Assembly: GCA_030919125.1 (NCBI GenBank)
Contig: CP121470.1
Location: 310,001 to 374,000, forward strand
From: Methanoregula sp. SKADARSKE-2
Lineage (GTDB): Archaea; Halobacteriota; Methanomicrobia; Methanomicrobiales; Methanospirillaceae
Direction: 5' to 3'
Length of the DNA stretch: 64,000 nucleotides
The notes beneath the pieces were generated by a model. That model saw nothing but the letters and a program-made list of their open reading frames with translations, did no database searches and was not told the DNA's origin. This document shows, piece by piece, positions 43,531-60,249 of this stretch (positions are counted from its first letter, which is position 1; each line of letters opens with the position of its first letter). A program made the translations under genes and the position numbers.

Positions 43531-44844
43531 ATGGCAAAATATAAGGATTCAATCGATCTTTACGACGATGAGGGCAAGCTCTTGAAGAGCGGCGTCACCA
43601 TCGAAAGGATCAGCCCGGTAGTCAACAAGGGTGCACTTCAGGTCATCGACCTCACCAAGAGGACAGTGGCAGTCAACCTTGCCGGTATCGAGGATGCCTT
43701 AAAGACCGGAAAGGTCGGCGGCAAGTCGAACCAGATTCTCGGCCGCAGCATGAGCTGCAGCTGTGTCAAAGACTGTGACGCAATCGCGGCCAAGATCAAG
43801 GACATGGTCCAGGTCGCTGACGGTGACAACACCAAGATCACCAAGGTCGGCGGCGGCAAGATGCTCCTCGTCGAGTGCCCAACCGCACGTATGGACGCAG
43901 CAGCAACCTACGATGTCGCATCGACCGTTGTTGCAGCAGCAACCACCTACGCGCTCATTGACCAGTACAAGGTCGGCATGTTCGACGGGTCCTACATCAA
44001 GGCAGCAGTCTGGGGTACCTACCCGCAGACAATGGACATGCAGGGCGGCAACGTCATCTCGATCCTCTCCATCCCCCAGAACAACGAAGGTCTCGGCTAC
44101 GCACTCCGTAACGTTCCGGCAAACCACGCGGTCATGATGACCCACCGGAATGCAATGCAGGGTGCAGCACTCTCTGCAACCTTCGAACAGGCAGGTATGT
44201 TCGAGATGGGTAACGCAGTCGGCCCATTCGAGAGAGCACAGCTCCTCCTCTTCGCATACCAGGGACTCAATGCAAACAACATCGTCTACGACCTCGTCAA
44301 GGCGAACGGCAAGACCGGAACCATCGGTACCGTTGTTCAGAGCCTCGTCGAGCGTGCACTTGAGGACAAGGTCATCAAGGCAGGCAAGAAGGGCAAGAGC
44401 GGCTACGTCTTCTACGAGACCAAGGACCCCATGCTCTGGAATGCATATGCATCTGCAGGAACCCTCGCAGCAACCATGGTCAACTGCGGTGCCGGACGTT
44501 TCGCCCAGGCAGTCTCAGCAACCCTGCTGTACTTCAACGACCTGCTCGAGCATGAGACCGGCCTCCCTGGCGCAGACTTCGGTCGTGCAATGGGTGTCGC
44601 AGTCGGTTTCTCGTTCTTCAGCCACTCCATCTACGGTGGCGGCGGCCCCGGTATCTTCAACGGTAACCACGTCGTAACCAGGCATGCAGCCGGAGTCGGT
44701 ATGCCCTGTATCGTTGCAGCCTGTGCGCTTGATGCAGGTACCCAGATGTTCGGCCCCGAACACACGTCCAAGGTTTACCAGGACACGTTCGGTCAGCTCG
44801 ATGCATTCAAGAAGCCAATCCAGGCAATTGCAAAGGGCATTTAA
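43531..44844 (+). CDS. mcrB: Methyl-coenzyme M reductase subunit beta
   Basis: This 437-residue subunit of the alpha2beta2gamma2 enzyme forms methane from methyl-CoM and CoB. Family segments include MSCSCVKDCDAIAAKIK, AQLLLFAYQGLNANN and HSIYGGGGPGIFNGNHVVT. Length is typical. The first gene of the mcrBDCGA operon, it shows strong codon bias (many GTC, CTC, AAG, GCA), as do the other highly expressed genes here. Confidence 0.97.
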   Translation: MAKYKDSIDLYDDEGKLLKSGVTIERISPVVNKGALQVIDLTKRTVAVNLAGIEDALKTGKVGGKSNQILGRSMSCSCVKDCDAIAAKIKDMVQVADGDNTKITKVGGGKMLLVECPTARMDAAATYDVASTVVAAATTYALIDQYKVGMFDGSYIKAAVWGTYPQTMDMQGGNVISILSIPQNNEGLGYALRNVPANHAVMMTHRNAMQGAALSATFEQAGMFEMGNAVGPFERAQLLLFAYQGLNANNIVYDLVKANGKTGTIGTVVQSLVERALEDKVIKAGKKGKSGYVFYETKDPMLWNAYASAGTLAATMVNCGAGRFAQAVSATLLYFNDLLEHETGLPGADFGRAMGVAVGFSFFSHSIYGGGGPGIFNGNHVVTRHAAGVGMPCIVAACALDAGTQMFGPEHTSKVYQDTFGQLDAFKKPIQAIAKGI

Positions 44845-44862
44845 GCCCCCAGATCGATACGA

Positions 44863-45333
44863 ATGACAGAAGCCACGTTCCCCCAGTGCAGGATAATAAC
44901 CGAGCGGCTGCTCAACCCCGAGACTACGGAAAAACTGCTCAACAGGCTTGTACTCATCCCCGGTATCCGGCGCATGATCCTCAACGGGCCCCGTCTTCCC
45001 GTAACCGTCCCGTACGGCCCTGCGAAAGGCTGCCCCAACCCTCACCCTATGAGGAAGGTAATCTGCATCGGCGACCAGTCGATCGAGCTCCAGACCCATG
45101 TTGGCACGATCCTTCTCGAGCTCGAGAGCCGGGAGATTATCCCCGCACTGCCATCCGCATGCGAAGAGGTCTTCACCAGTTTCTCCTTCCGCATCCAGGA
45201 AGGAAGATACATGAAGACCGAACCGTCACTGGTCGATTATGCCAAGTACGGCCCTCATGCGGACAAGACGATCATCGGAATGGTAGATCCAAAGAGCCAT
45301 TCCGGGCCCGTAATTCTCCAGGGAATAAAATAA
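44863..45333 (+). CDS. mcrD: Methyl-coenzyme M reductase operon protein D
   Basis: This 156-residue conserved protein lies between mcrB and mcrC. It starts with TFPQCRIITERLLNPET and contains GPRLPVTVPYGPAKGC. McrD is not a subunit of the mature enzyme; it is thought to help assembly or activation. The frame is intact. Confidence 0.93.
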   Translation: MTEATFPQCRIITERLLNPETTEKLLNRLVLIPGIRRMILNGPRLPVTVPYGPAKGCPNPHPMRKVICIGDQSIELQTHVGTILLELESREIIPALPSACEEVFTSFSFRIQEGRYMKTEPSLVDYAKYGPHADKTIIGMVDPKSHSGPVILQGIK

Positions 45334-45335
45334 AT

Positions 45336-45971
45336 ATGCCGATAGGACGAGTAACCCAGGTTGTCGATTGCCGCGAGGCAATGGGAATGGGAAAAGGGGG
45401 TGGAATCGCCCAGCGTGGCACCATCTCAGAGACCCGGTTTCCCGATGTCATTGTGGTCGGGATGTCTCCCGGACGCCGCCATGTGACAAAGCCGGTCTGT
45501 GATATCACCTCCGGCCTGCGACAACAGGGTATCGAGTACAGCATCAGCACGCTCGTGTTGAATGCCGGCAGCGGCGTGCCGCCGGATGCACCGAAAATCG
45601 GTGGCTCCGTACTCGGTGCCTATTTCGGGCTTACCCAGAAAGAGGTTGTGCAGATCGAGAGACACAAAGTCGCCATTCTTCACCACGGGAATGTCCGTTC
45701 CCATGTCGTGCATAAGGTCAGGTTTATCCTCCAGGCATGTGATGTGAAGGCAATTGTCGTTTCCCAATCCCCTGTCGATTACGAGGATTTCGCAAAAGAG
45801 GGAGTGAAGACCTCGGTTGTTATGCCGCCCGCTGATAAGATCCTTACAAAAGGTACAGTGATGGCCATCGTGAGCGGCGTAACCCGAGGTCAGACCCCCA
45901 CCCGCGAAAAAATGGCGGAAGTCATTTCGTCAGTTACGAGAATCTTGAAAACGAAGGAAACATTGGAGTGA
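45336..45971 (+). CDS. mcrC: Methyl-coenzyme M reductase operon protein C
   Basis: The protein has 211 residues from the ATG at 45336, 2 bases after the mcrD stop. The frame is open further upstream but overlaps mcrD. Typical segments are AMGMGKGGGIAQRGTI, VLNAGSGVPPDAP and KVAILHHGNVRSHV. McrC associates with the ATP-dependent activation complex that reduces the Ni of cofactor F430. Confidence 0.93.
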   Translation: MPIGRVTQVVDCREAMGMGKGGGIAQRGTISETRFPDVIVVGMSPGRRHVTKPVCDITSGLRQQGIEYSISTLVLNAGSGVPPDAPKIGGSVLGAYFGLTQKEVVQIERHKVAILHHGNVRSHVVHKVRFILQACDVKAIVVSQSPVDYEDFAKEGVKTSVVMPPADKILTKGTVMAIVSGVTRGQTPTREKMAEVISSVTRILKTKETLE

Positions 45972-45978
45972 TATAACA

Positions 45979-46743
45979 ATGGCATACAAACCCCAATATT
46001 GTCCCGGTCAGACTATTGTCGCCGACAACAGGCGCAAGCAGCTCAACCCGGACCACAAGCTGGAAAAGATTCGCGATGTCACGGACAAGGATGTTGTCCT
46101 GATCATGGGACACCGCGCACCCGGCTCAGCATACAAGAGTGCACACCCGCCGCTCTCTGAGCAGCAGGAACCAGAATGCCCGATCCGCAAGCTCGTGACG
46201 CCGACCGACGGCGCAAAGGCCGGCGACCGCGTCCGCTACATCCAGTTCGCTGACTCGATGTACAATGCACCCTGCCAGCCCTACATGAGGTCCTACCTCG
46301 AAGCATACCGCTTCCGCGGCATCGACCCAGGTACCCTTTCCGGCCGTCAGATCATCGAGTGCCGTGAGAGAGATCTCGAGAAGTACGCAAAGGAACTCGT
46401 CAACACTGAGCTCTTCGACCCCGCACTTACCGGTGCCCGTGGTGCGACTGTGCACGGTCACTCACTCCGTCTCGACGAGAACGGCATGATGTTCGACATG
46501 CTCCAGCGCTGTGTCCTCGACAAGAAGGCAGGCGTTGTCAAGTACGTCAAGAACCAGATCGGTGAGCCCCTCGACACTGAAGTCAAGGTGGGAAAGCCCA
46601 TGGACAACAAGTGGCTCAAGGCCCACACGACCATCTACCACTCGCTCGTGGGAACCGCATACCGCGACGATGCTGAACTCATCGAATACATCCAGCGCAT
46701 CCACTCGCTGAGGGTAAAATACGGCTTCATGCCAAAGGAGTGA
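45979..46743 (+). CDS. mcrG: Methyl-coenzyme M reductase subunit gamma
   Basis: The protein has 254 residues. It starts AYKPQYCPGQTIVADNR and contains IMGHRAPGSAYKSAHPPLSE, PYMRSYLEAYRFRGIDPG and ARGATVHGHSLRLDENG. It contributes to the F430 pocket and CoB channel. Spacing is tight: 7 bases after mcrC and 6 before mcrA. Confidence 0.97.
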   Translation: MAYKPQYCPGQTIVADNRRKQLNPDHKLEKIRDVTDKDVVLIMGHRAPGSAYKSAHPPLSEQQEPECPIRKLVTPTDGAKAGDRVRYIQFADSMYNAPCQPYMRSYLEAYRFRGIDPGTLSGRQIIECRERDLEKYAKELVNTELFDPALTGARGATVHGHSLRLDENGMMFDMLQRCVLDKKAGVVKYVKNQIGEPLDTEVKVGKPMDNKWLKAHTTIYHSLVGTAYRDDAELIEYIQRIHSLRVKYGFMPKE

Positions 46744-46749
46744 TAAGAC

Positions 46750-48438
46750 ATGGCAAAAGCAGCAAAAATCGAGAGAACCCAGAAGCTCTTCCTGAAGGCA
46801 ATGAAGGAGAAGTTCGCAGAGGACCCCCAGGCAACCTCGACCGTCTTCGGACGCGAAGGTCTTGAGCAGTCCCCCCGTAAAGTCGAGTTCATGAAGGCCG
46901 CAAAGAAGGTTGAGATGGAACGCGGCATCATCGGCTACGACCCCAAGCGCTGCCACCTCGGTGGTATCCCGCTCGGTCAGCGCCAGCTGATGACCTACGA
47001 AGTTTCCGGAACCGGTGTCTTTGTAGAAGGCGACGACCTCCACTTCGTCAACAACGCAGCAATGCAGCAGATGTGGGACGATATCCGCAGGACGATCATC
47101 GTCGGCCTCGACCTCGCCCACAACACCCTCCAGAAGCGGCTCGGCAAGGAAGTTACTCCTGAAACCATCAACGAGTACCTCCACGTTCTGAACCATGCAA
47201 TGCCAGGTGGCGCAGTCGTTCAGGAACACATGGTCGAGACCCACCCGTCACTTGTCGACGACTGTTACGTTAAGATCTTTACGGGCGACGACGAGATGGC
47301 AGACGACATCGAGCCCCAGTTCCTCCTCAACCTCGACAAGCTCTTCCCGGCAAAGTCGGCAGCAGCCCTGAAGGCAGCAGTCGGCAAGTCGATGTACCAG
47401 GCAGTGCACATCCCCACAACCGTCAGCAGGACCTGCGACGGTGGAACCACCTCCCGGTGGTCCGCAATGCAGATCGGTATGTCCTTCATCGGTGCGTATC
47501 ACATGTGCGCCGGTGAGGCAGCAGTCGCTGACCTCGCATTCGCAGCAAAGCACGCCGGTGTTATCCAGATGGCAGACATCCTGCCCGCCCGCCGTGCACG
47601 TGGCCCGAACGAGCCAGGTGGCATCAAGTTCGGTCACTTCGCCGATATGATCCAGGCAGACCGCACCTACCCCAACGACCCCGTCAAGGCATCCCTTGAA
47701 GTCGTCGGTGCAGGTACCATGCTCTTCGACCAGATCTGGCTCGGATCCTACATGTCCGGTGGTGTCGGATTCACCCAGTATGCAACCGCTGCATACACCG
47801 ACAACATCCTCGATGACTACTGCTACTACGGTCTTGACTACATCAAGTCCAAGCACGGTGGCATCGGCAAGGCAAAGCAGACCCAGGAAGTCGTCAACGA
47901 CATCGCAACGGAAGTCACTCTCTACGGTATGGAACAGTACGAACAGTTCCCGACCACCCTCGAGAGCCACTTCGGCGGTTCACAGCGTGCATCCGTCCTT
48001 GCAGCAGCATCGGGTATCACCACGTCACTCGCTACGGCAAACTCCAACGCCGGTCTGAACGGATGGTACATGTCCATGCTCGCCCACAAGGAAGGCTGGT
48101 CACGTCTCGGCTTCTTCGGCTACGACCTGCAGGACCAGTGCGGTTCATCCAACTCAATGTCGATCAGGCCCGACGAAGGCTGTATCGGCGAGCTCCGTGG
48201 ACCAAACTACCCCAACTATGCAATGAACGTCGGTCACCAGGGAGAGTACGCCGCTATCGCCGCAGCCGCTCACTACGGACGCCAGGATGCATGGACCCTA
48301 TCCCCGTTGATCAAGATCTGTTTCGCAGACCCGTCGCTCAAGTTTAACTTTGCTGAGCCCCGCCGCGAGTTTGCAAAGGGTGCAATCCGCGAGTTCATGC
48401 CCGCGGGCGAGCGCTCACTGATCATCCCCGCAAGGTAG
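46750..48438 (+). CDS. mcrA: Methyl-coenzyme M reductase subunit alpha
   Basis: The protein has 562 residues. This subunit holds most of the active site. The region carrying post-translational modifications is intact: methyl-His in [14 protein letters not shown], methyl-Arg near [15 protein letters not shown], and the thioglycine and S-methyl-Cys segment [18 protein letters not shown]. The diagnostic [16 protein letters not shown] used in mcrA surveys is present. It is the last gene of the operon, followed by a terminator-like hairpin and T runs. Confidence 0.98.
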
Positions 48439-48600: not shown

Positions 48601-49767
48601 ATGCTAATGAAAAACCCCTTCCACGTGATGCTCATCCCGACACTGGGGTGCCCCGGCAGGTGCAAATACTGCTGGAGTTCGGAGGAAGGGTCCCCGGTTA
48701 TGACCATCGATACCGTGAGAGCCACCGTCGAATGGCTCAAGGGATTCCGGTCCGACCGGGTCACCTTCACCTTCCACGGGGGGGAACCGCTTCTTGCCGG
48801 CGCTGATTTCTACATGCAGGCGCTTCCGCTCCTTTCGGAGGGCCTCAGAGAGCTCAACCCCGAGTTTGCGATGCAGACCAATCTCTGGCGAATGACTCCG
48901 GGGATTGCGGAGATCCTGGCGGAGTACCACATCCCTCTCGGGTCGAGCATCGATGGTCCCGAAGATATTACCGATTCACAACGGGGCGACGGGTATTTTG
49001 AAAAGACGATGAAAGGATACGAGATCGCAAAGACTCACGGTCTTCTGGTCCGTTTCATCTGCACGTTCACGAATAAATCCATGAAGCACCGGAAAGAGAT
49101 CTTCGAGTTCTTCAAGGATCAGGGATTCGATCTGAAACTTCACCCGGCACTTCCATCGCTTCGCTCCGAAAACCCGAGGGAGTGGGCGCTCGAACCCGAA
49201 GAATACGGCGAGCTGCTGGTCTACCTCCTCGACAAATCGTTGGACAATATCGGCAGGATGGAGGTCATGAACATCAGCGACCTCTGCCGGTGCGTCTTTA
49301 CCCGGAGGGGAAGCGTCTGCACATTCGTTAACTGTATGGGCAATACGTTTGCTGTTGGCCCGGATGGGAGCATCTATCCCTGCTACCGGTTCGTCGGCAT
49401 GCCGGAATGGGTGATGGGGCATCTGCGGGATAAACCGTCGATGGAGACCCTGATGCAGTCCGAGCCAGGCTGGCTTATGAGGGCATTCTCCGAATACGTG
49501 GATAGGGCCTGCAAAGACTGTTCCCATATCCGGTACTGCCGTGGAGGCTGCCCGTACAACGCGATCGCCCCGACCGGAGGGAAGATCGAGAGTGTGGATC
49601 CTCATTGCACCGCGTACAGACGGATCTTCACCGAGATCAACGACAGGCTCAACCGGGAGTTGTTCGATTCGCCCGGAATGGATATGGGTGGATTCGGTAT
49701 GTCAGGGTCCAAAAAACAGGCAAAACCCGGTATCATGGCGCTGATGCGGGCGATCGTGGAGAGATAG
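48601..49767 (+). CDS. Radical SAM/SPASM enzyme downstream of mcrA
   Basis: The protein has 388 residues. The N-terminal radical SAM motif is CPGRCKYCW (CX3CX2C), followed by FTFHGGEPLLAGADFY and SSIDGPEDITDSQRG, as in anaerobic sulfatase-maturase-like enzymes. The C-terminal SPASM part binds auxiliary clusters through NCMGNTF, GSIYPCYRF and CKDCSHIRYCRGGCPYNA. It resembles the methanogen group annotated as putative peptide-modifying radical SAM. No small precursor peptide was seen nearby; the mcr operon directly upstream makes modification of McrA a candidate role. An alternative start is at 48607. Confidence 0.85.
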   Translation: MLMKNPFHVMLIPTLGCPGRCKYCWSSEEGSPVMTIDTVRATVEWLKGFRSDRVTFTFHGGEPLLAGADFYMQALPLLSEGLRELNPEFAMQTNLWRMTPGIAEILAEYHIPLGSSIDGPEDITDSQRGDGYFEKTMKGYEIAKTHGLLVRFICTFTNKSMKHRKEIFEFFKDQGFDLKLHPALPSLRSENPREWALEPEEYGELLVYLLDKSLDNIGRMEVMNISDLCRCVFTRRGSVCTFVNCMGNTFAVGPDGSIYPCYRFVGMPEWVMGHLRDKPSMETLMQSEPGWLMRAFSEYVDRACKDCSHIRYCRGGCPYNAIAPTGGKIESVDPHCTAYRRIFTEINDRLNRELFDSPGMDMGGFGMSGSKKQAKPGIMALMRAIVER

Positions 49768-51788: not shown

Positions 51789-52688
51789 ATGGTAGATATT
51801 GTATTTGGCATTGGAATTACTGCATTGACAGGAGCTCTTGCCACCATAGCCGGTGCTGCGGAAGACACTGAATCCAACATCGGGTCGCAGGGAGACCCGA
51901 ACTCACAGGTTCAGCTCGCACCGCAGATGGGATTCATGCACCGCATTTTCAACAAGGCGGTTGCAGGTGAACCCCCGGCATACGGACTTTGGTGCGCACT
52001 CGGCGCAGGTCTGGCATGGGCATTCATGGCGATGTATCCAAACCCGGTTCTTGCAATCGTACTCGGCTCAGTACTCGCAGTCATTGTACAGGGCGTTTAC
52101 GCAACAACCGCATACCTCGGCAGGACAGCAAGTCTTGCCAAGTTCGGTCAGCCCGTCTACGTGGACATCCTGAAGTCCATGACGACGGTTACGATGGCAC
52201 ATGCATTTATTGCGATCTTTGGGACAGTAGCACTCTGTCAGCTGATCAACGGCGCACTCGAACACCCGTTCCCGCTGCCGCTGCTCGGTCTTATCTGGGG
52301 TGTCACTCTCGGTGCAGCAGGATCCGCAACCGGCAACCCGTACTATGGAAAGGAGAGGCAGTACCAGAACCAGAAGTTTGGTGCCGGTGTCCCGATATCA
52401 GCATCAGGGAACATCGTACGCTACGCCGAAGCAGGCGAGCGCAACTCACTCGACAATGGCTGGTTCACCGCAAAGATTGGCGGTGCAGCATCCGGTCTCT
52501 GTTTTGGTCTGATTGTTTTTCTCGAACTCTGGCGCACGATCCTCTTCGAGAAGAGCTTTGACGGCTGGGGCGCAGTCATCGTAGGTATCCTCGTTATCCT
52601 GATCTTCACGATCATTGACCGCTACATAGAGGTCTGGGCACGGAAGAACTACGGACCCTACTCGGAAATCAAGGAGGCATCCTCATGA
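51789..52688 (+). CDS. mtrE: Methyl-H4MPT:CoM methyltransferase subunit E
   Basis: This 299-residue, multi-helix subunit belongs to the membrane core of the Na+-translocating methyltransferase. It starts VDIVFGIGITALTGALATIA and contains NPYYGKERQYQNQKFGAGVP. It forms the MtrCDE ion-conducting part. It is the first gene of the operon, and the next gene overlaps it by 4 bases. Confidence 0.96.
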   Translation: MVDIVFGIGITALTGALATIAGAAEDTESNIGSQGDPNSQVQLAPQMGFMHRIFNKAVAGEPPAYGLWCALGAGLAWAFMAMYPNPVLAIVLGSVLAVIVQGVYATTAYLGRTASLAKFGQPVYVDILKSMTTVTMAHAFIAIFGTVALCQLINGALEHPFPLPLLGLIWGVTLGAAGSATGNPYYGKERQYQNQKFGAGVPISASGNIVRYAEAGERNSLDNGWFTAKIGGAASGLCFGLIVFLELWRTILFEKSFDGWGAVIVGILVILIFTIIDRYIEVWARKNYGPYSEIKEASS

Positions 52689-53518
52689 GCGCAGTAGCAG
52701 CAAAACCACAGGCTGGCGGCGCGATTAACCCCGGCGCAATGGCAGTCGGGATTGTTCTCCTCATCATCCTGCTCGGGATAGCATACGTTGTCTCACCTGG
52801 CATCGGCCTTATGGCACTCATCGGTGTTATTATCGGGGGTGTCCTGATCGGTTTCGGTGTCCACTTCGTCCCGGTCGGCGGTGCACCCGCAGCAATGGGA
52901 CAGGCACCCGGTATCGCGACTGGTGTCGCGATGCTCGCAGCGGGTGCAGGTCTCGCCGGACTCTTTGGCGGGGCATGGGCAGCTGAACAGGGATTAGAGA
53001 TGGCAGTCGTGACCGGCGCAATCGGCGGCGGTATGATGATGGCCATCACCTGTATGATGGTTAACTTCGTCTACGTCTTCGGCATGGGTATTCCCGCTGC
53101 ATCAGGTAAGGTCGCAAAGGACCCCATCACCGGTGACACGCAGGCAGAATACAAGTCCCAGGGTACTGAGGGACACGGCCTACCGTTCGTCTCGTTCGTC
53201 GGCGGTGTCATCGGAGGTATTCTCGGTGGTGCCGGTGGTACGCTCATCTACATCGAGCTCCTCGAACTCTACAAGACGACGCTCCCCGGTGTAATGAAGG
53301 TAACATCAGCACAGGCCGAGCCAATCGCCGTCTCGGTCGCTGGTATTTTTGCCATCGCCCTCTTCCTGGTGAATGCAGTTCTAACTGCATACAACATCAC
53401 GGGAACCATCGAAGGACCCCACGACCCGAAGTTCAAACGCTGGCCACGGGCAATCGTCGCATCTGCAGTTGCATCGGCACTCTGCGGACTTGTGGCGATC
53501 CTGATCGTTGTAATGTGA
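52685..53518 (+). CDS. mtrD: Methyl-H4MPT:CoM methyltransferase subunit D
   Basis: This 277-residue membrane subunit is very rich in Gly, Ala, Val and Ile. Signature stretches are HFVPVGGAPAAMGQAPG and the cytoplasmic loop DPITGDTQAEYKSQGTEGHG. It is part of the sodium-translocating core with MtrC and MtrE. Confidence 0.95.
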   Translation: MSAVAAKPQAGGAINPGAMAVGIVLLIILLGIAYVVSPGIGLMALIGVIIGGVLIGFGVHFVPVGGAPAAMGQAPGIATGVAMLAAGAGLAGLFGGAWAAEQGLEMAVVTGAIGGGMMMAITCMMVNFVYVFGMGIPAASGKVAKDPITGDTQAEYKSQGTEGHGLPFVSFVGGVIGGILGGAGGTLIYIELLELYKTTLPGVMKVTSAQAEPIAVSVAGIFAIALFLVNAVLTAYNITGTIEGPHDPKFKRWPRAIVASAVASALCGLVAILIVVM

Positions 53519-53529
53519 GGTTGTTGAAG

Positions 53530-54366
53530 ATGTCAGTAAAAGTTGAAGTTATTGAAGGAGGCGTCCCGCACAGCAAGATCCTTATCGCGGGATTTGTCGG
53601 CACACTCGTCTGCCTCTACCTGACGTATCTCAATGTACTCACCACCCACACCGGAATGTTCGCATTCTTCGGTGGATTGGCTGCGGTCATTGCCCTGATC
53701 TGGGGATCCCACACCATCAAGGTACTGTGCAGTTACGGTATCGGGACCGGTGTTCCCTCGGCAGGTATGATTGCGTTTGGTTCAGGTACTATCGCATTCC
53801 TGTTTGCAACCAAGTTCGGTGATGCTGCACCCATCGTTGCAGTCGTCCTTGCGGCAGTAGTCGGGTTCATCCTCGGCTGGGTATCAAATAACGTCCTGAA
53901 CATGAGAATCCCCGCGATGGTCCAGGCACTGACCGAGATGGCAGTTGTCGGAGCACTCACCCTTATGGGATTCGCGGCACTCATGACCGGCGGATTTACC
54001 TTTACAGGACTCACCAGTGTCTCAGTCGGGACGACCATGGGTACAAACACGTTCCTTGGCGGATGTCTCATTGCAGTAGCATTCCTCCTCGGGGCGATCG
54101 CGATCCAGCACCCGTTCAACGCGTGCCTCGGACCCGGCTGGAAACAGGACAGGATGCTCATGCTCACCGCAGAATGCGGGTTCCTCAGCATGATCGTCGC
54201 AGCCATCATGTCCTATGCCTTAGTCGACCACGTATCGGCGACAATCTCGCTGATCGTTGCGCTCGTTGGCTGGGTATACACATACAAAGAGTACATCGTC
54301 CTCTCGAGGCGTGACGCAGCAGCATGGCTCGACTCGAAACCGATTCCTGAAGTGGAGGGACACTAA
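53530..54366 (+). CDS. mtrC: Methyl-H4MPT:CoM methyltransferase subunit C
   Basis: The protein is about 278 residues and starts at the ATG at 53530 (MSVKVEVIEGGVPHSK); the frame extends a few codons upstream into mtrD. Repeated hydrophobic helices and the segment HPFNACLGPGWKQDRMLMLT are typical. It is the third member of the membrane core. Confidence 0.95.
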   Translation: MSVKVEVIEGGVPHSKILIAGFVGTLVCLYLTYLNVLTTHTGMFAFFGGLAAVIALIWGSHTIKVLCSYGIGTGVPSAGMIAFGSGTIAFLFATKFGDAAPIVAVVLAAVVGFILGWVSNNVLNMRIPAMVQALTEMAVVGALTLMGFAALMTGGFTFTGLTSVSVGTTMGTNTFLGGCLIAVAFLLGAIAIQHPFNACLGPGWKQDRMLMLTAECGFLSMIVAAIMSYALVDHVSATISLIVALVGWVYTYKEYIVLSRRDAAAWLDSKPIPEVEGH

Positions 54367-54663
54367 ATGGCATACATCCAGGTTCTCCCGGAATTCGGTC
54401 TCGTAGCCGACCCGATGGTTGGTCTCGTTACCTCGGCCGGAGAGTCACTCTCACCGGTCCTCGAGAAAGTCGCAATCCTTGAAGCAACGAGTGGTGACCT
54501 CATCAACATGCTCTCAGGGACTGGCAACCTCCTTGCATCCTTCCCGAACAGGGACAAGGGGCTTGCAATCGGCGGAGCCATCACCTCGTACTGGTACGGT
54601 CTCGCCGTAGGACTATTCATTGCAGGAATTATCGCATTCAAGATGATGACAGGGGGGCAGTAA
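54367..54663 (+). CDS. mtrB: Methyl-H4MPT:CoM methyltransferase subunit B
   Basis: This 98-residue subunit starts [20 protein letters not shown] and ends with a single membrane helix ([17 protein letters not shown]). It starts immediately after the mtrC stop and ends one base before mtrA. MtrB is one of the single-helix subunits around the core. Confidence 0.94.
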
Positions 54664-54664
54664 C

Positions 54665-55390
54665 ATGGCAGACAAGAAATCACCAGCAAGTGGCTGGCCG
54701 CTCGTCAAGGGCGACTTCCACTCAGGAGACGCAAACAGTCCCGTTGCTGTCGTCACCATGGGTTCACACCTCGATGAACAAGGCATCTGTGACGCGGGCG
54801 CAGCCCTCTGCGGTTCCTGTAAGACCGAGAATCTCGGTCTTGAGAAGGTCATCGCCAACATCATCTCCAACCCCAACATCAGGTTCGTACTGCTCTGCGG
54901 TACTGAAGTGAAGGGACATCTCTCAGGCCAGACCCTTTCCGCACTCCACAAGGGTGGAATCAAGGAAGGACGTGTCGTCGGCGCTGAAGGTGCAATCCCC
55001 TTCATCGAGAACCTCAACGATGCTGCGATCAAGCGCTTCCAGGAGCAGGTCGAGCTCGTCAACATCATGGAGTCCGAAGACCTCGGCGCGATCAAGGCGA
55101 AGATCAACGAACTCAAAGCCCGGGACCCGGGTGCGTTCGCTGCTGACCCGATTGTTGTCGAAGTCAAGGAAGCTGCAGGTGGCGCAGAAGAAGCGACCGG
55201 AGAAGCTCGTCCGCTCTCAGGAGAGATGGCACTTATAACGGCCCGCATGAAGACCATTGAAAAGATGGTCACCGACATCGGGTACCGGAATAAGTTTGCC
55301 GCCGGGGTATACTCAGGCAAGATCGAAGGATTGATGATCGGTCTGATCATCTCGTTTACCCTGTTTGCAATCCTGGTGTGGGGGGTGTAA
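54665..55390 (+). CDS. mtrA: Methyl-H4MPT:CoM methyltransferase corrinoid subunit A
   Basis: This 241-residue protein has a soluble corrinoid-binding domain (residues 1-172; [14 protein letters not shown] holds the likely cobalt-ligand His), a linker and a C-terminal membrane anchor ([16 protein letters not shown]). It accepts the methyl group from methyl-H4MPT via MtrH and hands it to CoM. Residues 1-173 are identical, apart from residue 9, to the second MtrA-like protein two genes downstream. Confidence 0.96.
54920..55152 (+). repeat. Copy 1 of a 233-base perfect repeat within mtrA
   Basis: These bases are identical to 55855-56087 in the mtrA-mtrG fusion, offset by 935. The first 255 bases of the two genes differ at many silent sites, so this tract looks recently homogenised. 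Confidence 0.9.
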
Positions 55391-55393
55391 GAG

Positions 55394-55594
55394 ATGGCAG
55401 AAGAAGCTAAAACAACAGGACCGATCCGGATGGTTGCGATCGACAACATGGTGGAGGACATCCGCTACAAGTCGCAGATCCTCGCCCGGACGAACAAGAT
55501 CGATTCGGCAGTTACCTCCATGGGACTTGTCGGGTTCGGTCTCGGACTGCTTACAGCACTGATCCTGATTGTGGTGCCCGTATTATTGAGGTGA
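55394..55594 (+). CDS. mtrF: Methyl-H4MPT:CoM methyltransferase subunit F
   Basis: This 66-residue protein begins with a polar part ([19 protein letters not shown]) and ends with one membrane helix ([19 protein letters not shown]). Related in sequence to the N-terminal part of some MtrA proteins, it is a single-helix subunit of the complex. It lies 3 bases after mtrA. Confidence 0.92.
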
Positions 55595-55599
55595 AGAAG

Positions 55600-56322
55600 A
55601 TGGCAGACAAGAAATCACCAGCAGGTGGATGGCCGCTCGTCAAGGGCGACTTCCACTCAGGAGACGCAAACAGCCCCGTCGCTGTTGTCACCATGGGTTC
55701 GCACCTCGATGAACAGGGTATCTGCGATGCAGGAGCGGCACTCTGCGGTTCCTGTAAGACCGAGAACCTCGGTCTTGAGAAAGTCATCGCCAACATCATC
55801 TCCAACCCCAACATCAGGTTCGTGCTGCTCTGCGGTACTGAAGTGAAGGGACACCTCTCAGGCCAGACCCTTTCCGCACTCCACAAGGGTGGAATCAAGG
55901 AAGGACGTGTCGTCGGCGCTGAAGGTGCAATCCCCTTCATCGAGAACCTCAACGATGCTGCGATCAAGCGCTTCCAGGAGCAGGTCGAGCTCGTCAACAT
56001 CATGGAGTCCGAAGACCTCGGCGCGATCAAGGCGAAGATCAACGAACTCAAAGCCCGGGACCCGGGTGCGTTCGCTGCTGACCCGATCGTTGTCGAAGTC
56101 AAGGAAGCTGCGGGCGGCCAGGAAGTGGGCACTGCAAGTGCAAACCCTCAGTTCCTCGAGATCGAAAAGCGCCTCGACAAGATCGAGAAGCAGATCGAGT
56201 TCGTCGATGCAGAGGTTGCACAGCGTGTTGGAAGAAAGATCGGGCGGGATATCGGTATTCTGTACGGCCTCGTTGCTGGGTTAACCGTAATATTGATGTT
56301 GCTGATCCTGGTCCGGAATTAA
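55600..56322 (+). CDS. Fusion of a second MtrA domain with MtrG
   Basis: The protein is about 240 residues and starts at the ATG at 55600; a GTG at 55591 overlaps the mtrF stop. Residues 1-173 are a full corrinoid-binding MtrA domain, including the His of [10 protein letters not shown]. After a short linker ([15 protein letters not shown]) the remainder is Mtr[21 protein letters not shown], then [20 protein letters not shown] with the membrane helix. No separate mtrG exists between mtrF and mtrH, where mtrG normally lies, so in this operon MtrG is made only in this fused form. The frame is clean across the join. Confidence 0.93.
55855..56087 (+). repeat. Copy 2 of the 233-base perfect repeat, in the mtrA-mtrG fusion
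   Basis: Identical to 54920-55152. The flanking mismatches at 55854 and 56088 are both silent changes. Confidence 0.9.
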
Positions 56323-56352
56323 TGGCAATGACGTAATGGAGGTGTAAAAGAA

Positions 56353-57390
56353 ATGTTCAGATTCGAGAAAGAACAGAGTGTCTGGGACTTTAACGGCACT
56401 AAGATCGGTGGACAGCCCGGCGAGTACCCGACGGTATTGGGAGCTTCGATATTCTACAACAAGCACGAGTGCGTGCTCGATGACCACACGGGTAAGATCG
56501 ACAAGGCAAAGGCAGAGGCTCTCTGGAACCGGTGTCAGGTCCTCTCCGACATGACCGGTGTCCCCCACTTCATCCAGATCATCGCAGAGTACGGGGAAGC
56601 GTTCGAGAGCTACTTCAGCTGGTTCGATTCCATCGACAACAAGACTGCATTCCTGATGGACTCCTCAGCACCAGCGGCACTCGCCCACGCGTGCAAGTAC
56701 GTCACCGATGTCGGTCTCGCTCACCGTGCGATCTACAACTCGATCAACGGTTCGATCCCACAGGAAAACATCGATGCCCTCAAGGCAAGCGATGTTGACG
56801 CGGCCATCGTCCTCGCATTCAACCCCGGCGACCCTTCGGTCGTTGGCCGTGAGAAAGTTCTTGTCGAGGGTGGCGTTGCAGGTCAGGCAAAGGGTATGCT
56901 CGCTATCGCAGAAGAGTGCGGTATCAAGCGCCCGATTCTCGACACCGCAGCAACCCCGCTCGGTCTCGGCTCCGGTGGCTCATACCGTGAGATCCTTGCC
57001 TGCAAGGCAATCCACGGCTACCCCACCGGTGGTGCATACCACAACATGACGGTCTCCTGGACCTGGCTCAAGCGCTGGAAGGGTTCAAAGAAGACCCCCT
57101 CGGTCATGGCAGAAGGATACAAGGGCAACGACGTCCTCCTCGAGCAGATGACCCACCACTACCTCGGCGGTATGGAAGGCATGAAGCAGGCAGCATGGTC
57201 GGCACCCGATATCGGATGCAACATGATTGCAAGCACCCTCGGTGCAGACCTCATCATGTACGGACCCATCGAGAACGTAGAAGCAATGATCACAGCACAG
57301 GCCTACACGGATATCACTGTCCTTGAGGCAACCCGCCAGCTCGGCATCGAGAGCAAATCAGACAGCCACCCAATCTTCAAACTCATCTAA
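56353..57390 (+). CDS. mtrH: Methyl-H4MPT:CoM methyltransferase subunit H
   Basis: This 345-residue soluble TIM-barrel subunit transfers the methyl group from methyl-H4MPT to the corrinoid of MtrA. It begins FEKEQSVWDFNGTKIGGQPG and contains MDSSAPAALAHACKYV and TAATPLGLGSGGSYRE. GGAGGTG lies about 10 bases before the ATG. It closes the operon and is followed by a run of eight T. Confidence 0.96.
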   Translation: MFRFEKEQSVWDFNGTKIGGQPGEYPTVLGASIFYNKHECVLDDHTGKIDKAKAEALWNRCQVLSDMTGVPHFIQIIAEYGEAFESYFSWFDSIDNKTAFLMDSSAPAALAHACKYVTDVGLAHRAIYNSINGSIPQENIDALKASDVDAAIVLAFNPGDPSVVGREKVLVEGGVAGQAKGMLAIAEECGIKRPILDTAATPLGLGSGGSYREILACKAIHGYPTGGAYHNMTVSWTWLKRWKGSKKTPSVMAEGYKGNDVLLEQMTHHYLGGMEGMKQAAWSAPDIGCNMIASTLGADLIMYGPIENVEAMITAQAYTDITVLEATRQLGIESKSDSHPIFKLI

Positions 57391-59424: not shown

Positions 59425-60030
59425 TCAGGAAATATTAAGGGCTTCAAACCCCTGTTTGAAGACTTTCCCGAACTGGACCCGGATCTTCGGATCAAGGGCA
59501 CAGACAGGACAGATATAATCATCGGGAAGATCCTCGAATTTTGTCCCTGCCTTTATGCCGCGATGAGGCTCTCCGCGTTTTTCATCGTAGACATACCCGC
59601 ATACGGAACAGATATACCGGGTGGCGTGCCATTCCTCAAATCCCCACTTCCCAATCCTCCCCTTGCCCTCATAACCGCAGATGGGGCATACGTAATCTTC
59701 GGGAAGGTCGTCAAATCCTGTCCCGGCAGGGATATTATTATGAGGCTCCCCCCTGAGAGGCGAGTACACGTACCCGCATAGTTTGCATCGGTACCGGGCT
59801 ATGGTTGCGGTTTTTTTCCCTGAAGCCTTGGGGACCTTTTTTGTTACGGGTTTTACCGGGGTCTTGCCTTTTTTCAGAGTCGTCACCGGTCCCTTCCCCG
59901 CAACTGCAAGCCTTCCTCTGGTCTTTTTTATAGGGGTCTTCGGGGCCTTTACCGATCGGGTCGTCTTGCCTGCGCCGGTCTTTTTCACAGGGGCAGTACT
60001 TTTCTCTCCGGGAGTCGCAGTTTTTACCAT
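59425..60030 (-). CDS. Double rubredoxin with a lysine-rich N-terminal tail
   Basis: The protein is about 201 residues and starts at the ATG at 60030 ([11 protein letters not shown]), preceded by GGTGA at a 7-base spacing; the frame is open to 60189. Residues 1 to about 80 are a Lys/Thr/Pro/Ala-rich tail. Two rubredoxin domains follow, with [10 protein letters not shown]...CPICGYEG and [10 protein letters not shown]...CPVCALD, each able to bind one iron. Rubredoxins shuttle electrons, often for oxygen or superoxide defence. The basic tail could bind acidic partners or nucleic acid; this is speculative. Confidence 0.8.
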
Positions 60031-60249
60031 AACACCGTCACCATTCTCCTCCTGTCCCAGGAATTCCTCCGGGAAGGCAGCTAAACAGGAAGTAATAGAG
60101 GGTTCCGGTTCATCAATGTTGTGGAAGAACGCCGGGTTGCTATTCCCCCATAAATCCATCTGAATCAAGTACTTGGTACAATCGCACAACTATTCCACGC
60201 AGGGAAAGGTAATGTGAACAACTCGTCAATACGAATGGGAGGGATCATA

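Follow-up and report, generated by a model that had tools for sequence, protein, structure and literature searches.

In Methanoregula sp. SKADARSKE-2, MtrG is encoded as the C-terminal part of a larger protein whose N-terminal part is a complete second MtrA corrinoid domain. This MtrA-MtrG fusion is real, was correctly described in the original prediction, and is already published: Wang et al. 2015 (PMC4632066) named the same gene mtrA-2b, an additional mtrA copy that lacks an anchor of its own and is fused to mtrG. The fusion is not peculiar to the window (the whole 64,000-nucleotide stretch of DNA analysed here), but is an order-wide trait, which the original prediction missed, and an ancient feature of the whole order Methanomicrobiales. 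The best explanation, and probably the correct one, is that the product is the Methanomicrobiales form of MtrG in the sodium-pumping methyl-H4MPT:coenzyme M methyltransferase (Mtr), which brings a second arm into the complex by way of the MtrG place.

The fusion gene and its operon

The mtr operon of the window occupies positions 51789-57390 of the + strand, in the order mtrE, mtrD, mtrC, mtrB, mtrA, mtrF, fusion gene and mtrH. Apart from the fusion gene, which is located downstream of mtrA-1 and between mtrF and mtrH, it is an ordinary mtrEDCBAFGH operon. Its features are as follows.

51789-52688, +: mtrE, first in the operon, open reading frame (ORF) of 299 amino acids, named from position and sequence character
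52685-53518, +: mtrD, ORF of 277 amino acids, named from its canonical operon position
53515-54366, +: mtrC, ORF of 283 amino acids, named from its canonical operon position; a downstream ATG is a possible start
54367-54663, +: mtrB (Pfam PF05440, E 4e-29)
54665-55390, +: mtrA-1, corrinoid domain with its own C-terminal stalk/membrane helix (Pfam PF04208 at residues 4-173, E 2e-84; TIGR01111, 340 bits)
55394-55594, +: mtrF, free subunit (Pfam PF09472, E 3e-23)
55588-55594, +: GAGGTGA, likely ribosome-binding site of the fusion gene, read in the sequence
55600-56118, +: fusion gene, MtrA corrinoid domain, residues 1-173, axial His85 (Pfam); homogenised with mtrA-1
56107-56145, +: fusion gene, linker, residues 170-182, Ala/Gly-rich by composition over relatives and predicted to be disordered (AlphaFold2 pLDDT < 50)
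56146-56322, +: fusion gene, MtrG part, residues 183-240 and stop, one long predicted helix from the conserved PQF (Pfam PF04210)
56353-57390, +: mtrH, methyltransferase (Pfam PF02007, E 7e-95)

The fusion ORF is open on the + strand from the ATG at 55600, which is homologous to the start of mtrA-1, to the stop codon at 56320-56322, and encodes 240 amino acids. Slightly upstream in the same frame, a GTG at 55591 overlaps the stop codon of mtrF. Within this one protein, Pfam places MtrA at residues 4-173 (E 6e-84) and MtrG at residues 184-236 (E 9e-23), the latter with 80.4 bits against a curated cut-off of 27, and the mtrA and mtrG equivalogs of NCBIfam both score above their cut-offs. The axial His85 of the fusion, equivalent to His84 of M. 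marburgensis, is kept, and is also present in mtrA-1. Judged by its complete domain and ligand residues, the MtrA domain appears to be of the functional type and is predicted to bind a corrinoid.

In a single-chain AlphaFold2 model, the MtrA fold superimposes on 5L8X chain A at 1.6 A over 170 columns, residues 170-182 are disordered (pLDDT < 50), and residues 183-239 form a single helix. The two parts are thus joined by a flexible linker of 13 residues; its composition over relatives is 39% Ala and 26% Gly. The MtrA part aligns to chains A of the solved Mtr complexes and the MtrG part to chains 9qtq_S and 8q3v_G, and a 15-residue MtrG core is retained in the fusions. The IPxVVVD stretch, which precedes the helix at the N-terminus of free MtrG (a common feature of free MtrG, and not a curated criterion), is absent from the fusions, where an Ala/Gly-rich linker ending in ANPQF is found instead. 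Consistent with this, the MtrG profile match begins at profile position 5-11 in the fusions, compared to 1-4 in the best free MtrG.

It had been claimed that a complete second corrinoid domain is joined in frame to MtrG, that the operon has no separate mtrG, and that the fusion replaces a free MtrG. All of this is borne out by a single ORF in which Pfam and NCBIfam find both parts, by the position of the fusion in the mtrG place between mtrF and mtrH, and by the conserved MtrG residues of its helix. A standalone mtrG elsewhere in the genome had been named as the finding that would overturn the claim. None was found in the single contig of 1,949,073 bp (1.95 Mb, about 95% complete): a profile search of the whole genome detects one MtrG, which is the fused one, and exactly two MtrA domains, both inside the mtr operon.

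A free MtrG might still be produced if the linker were cleaved, yielding an ordinary MtrG and a soluble MtrA carrier that would resemble the free MtrA homologue found in the cytoplasm of Methanothermus. The predicted disorder of residues 170-182 and the existence of soluble MtrA homologues would agree with this, but the linker length is tightly held (12-15 residues) and the ANPQF motif is conserved, and cleavage is regarded as very unlikely. Separate synthesis of MtrG is opposed by the lack of a conserved internal start at the join, where a GTG at Val176 is the only candidate in the window. The commonest in-frame ATG, encoding the Met of PMVVEV, was rejected as a start, being located about 20 codons before PQF and inside the homogenised domain; in the window this residue is Ile.

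Several other genes of the window deserve mention. Genes that by sequence character form an mcr operon (methyl-coenzyme M reductase) are found upstream of the mtr operon at 43531-48438, and the final two steps of methanogenesis are thus encoded side by side in this genome. The two operons are separated by a gene for a peptide-modifying radical SAM enzyme of the TIGR04083 family (48601-49767, 690 bits), beside which there is no obvious candidate for a small substrate peptide. A protein encoded at 59425-60189 on the - strand has two rubredoxin-like matches after a Lys/Thr/Pro-rich N-terminal stretch. Finally, the C-terminal anchor of mtrA-1 (55235-55372) gives a weak match to the MtrF profile (E about 2e-4), which suggests a shared origin of the MtrA anchor and MtrF.

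Distribution in the Methanomicrobiales

The 2015 survey located mtrA-2b between mtrF and mtrH in all eight Methanomicrobiales examined. A search for the same join in further members of the order, which had been proposed with the original prediction, recovered the complete fusion at 94 loci, drawn from two overlapping collections, and a free mtrG at no intact locus. An MtrG match is present in 179 of the 232 genomes of the order, one in each, and every intact MtrG locus has an open frame of about 240-320 amino acids. The MtrG helix begins with PQF at residue 177-185 in 93 of the 94 loci, and with PQY in the remaining one. Named carriers include Methanoregula, Methanolinea, Methanocalculus, Methanoculleus, Methanofollis, Methanomicrobium, Methanogenium, Methanocorpusculum and Methanospirillaceae; the nearest named relatives of the window's own genome are Methanoregula-like. 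Outside the order but within the same phylum, the MtrG genes among the matches listed are free, with frames of 73-143 amino acids and a profile match from position 1-4. In the rest of the phylum, MtrG is as a rule a free subunit.

Short frames were also encountered within the order. Twenty such cases were fetched as candidates for a standalone mtrG; 16 of them stop at a contig end, and the others are shifted frames or a collapsed repeat, leaving no clean free gene. Short-read assemblies are evidently broken at the fusion locus because the mtrA copies are near-identical. The genomes without an MtrG match are mostly fragmented assemblies, several of which also lack MtrA or MtrF.

Given that the repeat breaks or collapses some short-read assemblies (for example L108 in genome G146), the join could itself be an artefact of two collapsed or mis-joined repeats. 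However, the same join is present in single-contig genomes, in cultured species of many genera and in the complete genomes surveyed in 2015. Its recurrence refutes an assembly artefact, which retains practically no probability.

In Methanolinea sp. UBA275 (G146; loci L108 and L079), the mtrA-1 anchor and mtrF are absent and mtrB is followed directly by the fusion. Another assembly (G164, locus L047) also lacks the mtrA-1 anchor and mtrF. These gaps are most likely due to collapse of the near-identical mtrA repeat, or else to a deletion by recombination. A true loss of MtrA-1 and MtrF was considered for UBA275, but MtrF is found nowhere in that assembly, and therefore repeat collapse fits better than a viable deletion.

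Concerted evolution of the two MtrA domains

The two MtrA domains of the window share 96.0% DNA identity over the first 519 nucleotides, with 20 synonymous codon differences and 1 non-synonymous one; identity to the closest other species is below 89%. The similarity ends abruptly just upstream of the domain and past codon 173. The same pattern is seen across the order. Over 69 distinct pairs, mean DNA identity is 95.6% within genomes compared to 75.8% for orthologs; in 57 pairs the identity to the paralog exceeds that to the best ortholog, and in 59 the paralogs are sisters in a DNA tree. Amino-acid identity between paralogs exceeds 0.9 up to residue 170 and then falls to 0.42, 0.15 and 0.01 per ten-residue block. 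The axial His is present in all 69 copies of A1 and all 69 of A2 (138 domains).

This is in line with Wang et al. (PMC4632066), who reported that gene conversion keeps the MtrA domains of both copies alike; the mtrA case was recovered in a 2018 paper on concerted evolution (PMC6053082). The window locus shares with the published mtrA-2b its fusion, its place in the operon, the presence of two mtrA copies and the gene conversion of the MtrA domain. There is no essential difference, and the genome represents one more member of the group.

Lineages with diverged copies are a small addition to the published account. The within-genome pairs at L144/L145 (Methanomicrobium), L075/L076, L159, L088 and L083 are only 79-84% identical in DNA, and gene conversion has thus slowed or stopped in them; at L144/L145 and L075/L076, a copy is closer to its orthologs than to its paralog. 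Even these pairs retain the axial histidine. Such lineages would be useful natural tests for separate roles of the two arms.

The near-identity of the two domains, held in most genomes, would also agree with an effect of dosage or redundancy only. On this reading, the second domain would simply provide more corrinoid carrier, with no distinct kinetic role, and gene conversion would purge harmful mutations and keep both copies fitted to the same partners, as proposed in PMC4632066. We consider this unlikely, since the fusion to a stalk subunit is fixed at every intact locus read, and a fusion to MtrF arose independently in Methanococcales. Together, these two fusions suggest that position matters beyond amount. 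The MtrF fusion, named mtrA-2a and found in Methanococcales and Methanocella arvoryzae (PMC4632066), likewise has a second MtrA domain at the N-terminus of a stalk subunit, homogenised with mtrA-1, but it differs in its partner and, according to the same study, in its origin. According to work cited in PMC4632066 (Sarmiento et al. 2013), neither copy is dispensable in Methanococcus maripaludis. Our own literature search for essentiality data returned no paper.

A probable second corrinoid arm at the MtrG position

The solved Mtr complexes, PDB 8Q3V from M. marburgensis and 9QTQ from M. mazei, contain the same subunits as those encoded in the window operon, but MtrG is free and there is one MtrA per protomer. 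In the published cryo-EM structures, the N-termini of all four stalk helices face the cytosol, and MtrG forms the three-helix core in the membrane. Given that the MtrG N-terminus is cytosolic, an extra arm per protomer would be natural. In the M. mazei complex, each trimer is associated with three MtrH dimers, which amounts to two MtrH for every MtrA. If MtrG carries an MtrA domain at its N-terminus, this domain would be on the correct side, beside the MtrA-1 arm, and corrinoid domains and MtrH sites would then be present at a ratio of 2:2. The segments modelled in contact with MtrH or MtrCDE (A16-17, A33-35, A56, A79-84 and A111-115; PMC10998594) are invariant or nearly invariant columns in an alignment of 44 fusion proteins.

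These structures are consistent with doubled corrinoid arms at the MtrG position, the mechanism originally predicted, and this appears to be the best reading of the fusion. An ancient mtrA duplicate would have lost its own anchor and then been joined to mtrG, while gene conversion with mtrA-1 keeps both corrinoid domains nearly identical. The MtrG helix of the fusion would take the usual position of MtrG in the threefold stalk, and a second, functional and presumably corrinoid-loaded MtrA domain would be attached to its cytosolic N-terminus through a short flexible linker. With two equivalent methyl-carrying arms in every protomer (six in a trimer), the number of arms would equal that of the MtrH active sites. 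One arm might then be recharged at MtrH during delivery to MtrCDE by the other, and methyl shuttling from MtrH might change, as originally predicted. We put forward only tentatively this more detailed scheme, in which each arm serves one MtrH site, demethylation of methyl-H4MPT alternates with methylation of coenzyme M, and the N-terminal strand of MtrG has been given up for the linker. A doubled rate should not be assumed, since the distal MtrH site is thought to be difficult to reach in the M. mazei structure and there is one MtrCDE per protomer.

The exchange of IPxVVVD for a linker might also affect the neighbouring subunits. In the published structures, short sheets connect MtrB and MtrG, and the N-termini of MtrB, MtrF and MtrG form an extended sheet near the MtrH dock; this region may be rearranged in the fusions.

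The words 'fused' and 'fusion' are absent from the Mtr cryo-EM papers PMC10998594 and PMC12774963, and searches under alternative names for the fusion yielded nothing past the 2015 and 2018 papers. For Methanomicrobiales Mtr, no protein, stoichiometry or activity data were found in the literature.

Mtr is the sodium pump at the centre of energy conservation in methane formation. The structures now available are from species in which a protomer has a single corrinoid domain, while the genomes of a whole order, with widespread wetland and digester methanogens among its members, specify another such domain on the stalk. Methanococcales have independently arrived at a parallel arrangement through MtrF. 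Solving the complex from a member of either order would reveal directly if the pump works with one arm or with both.
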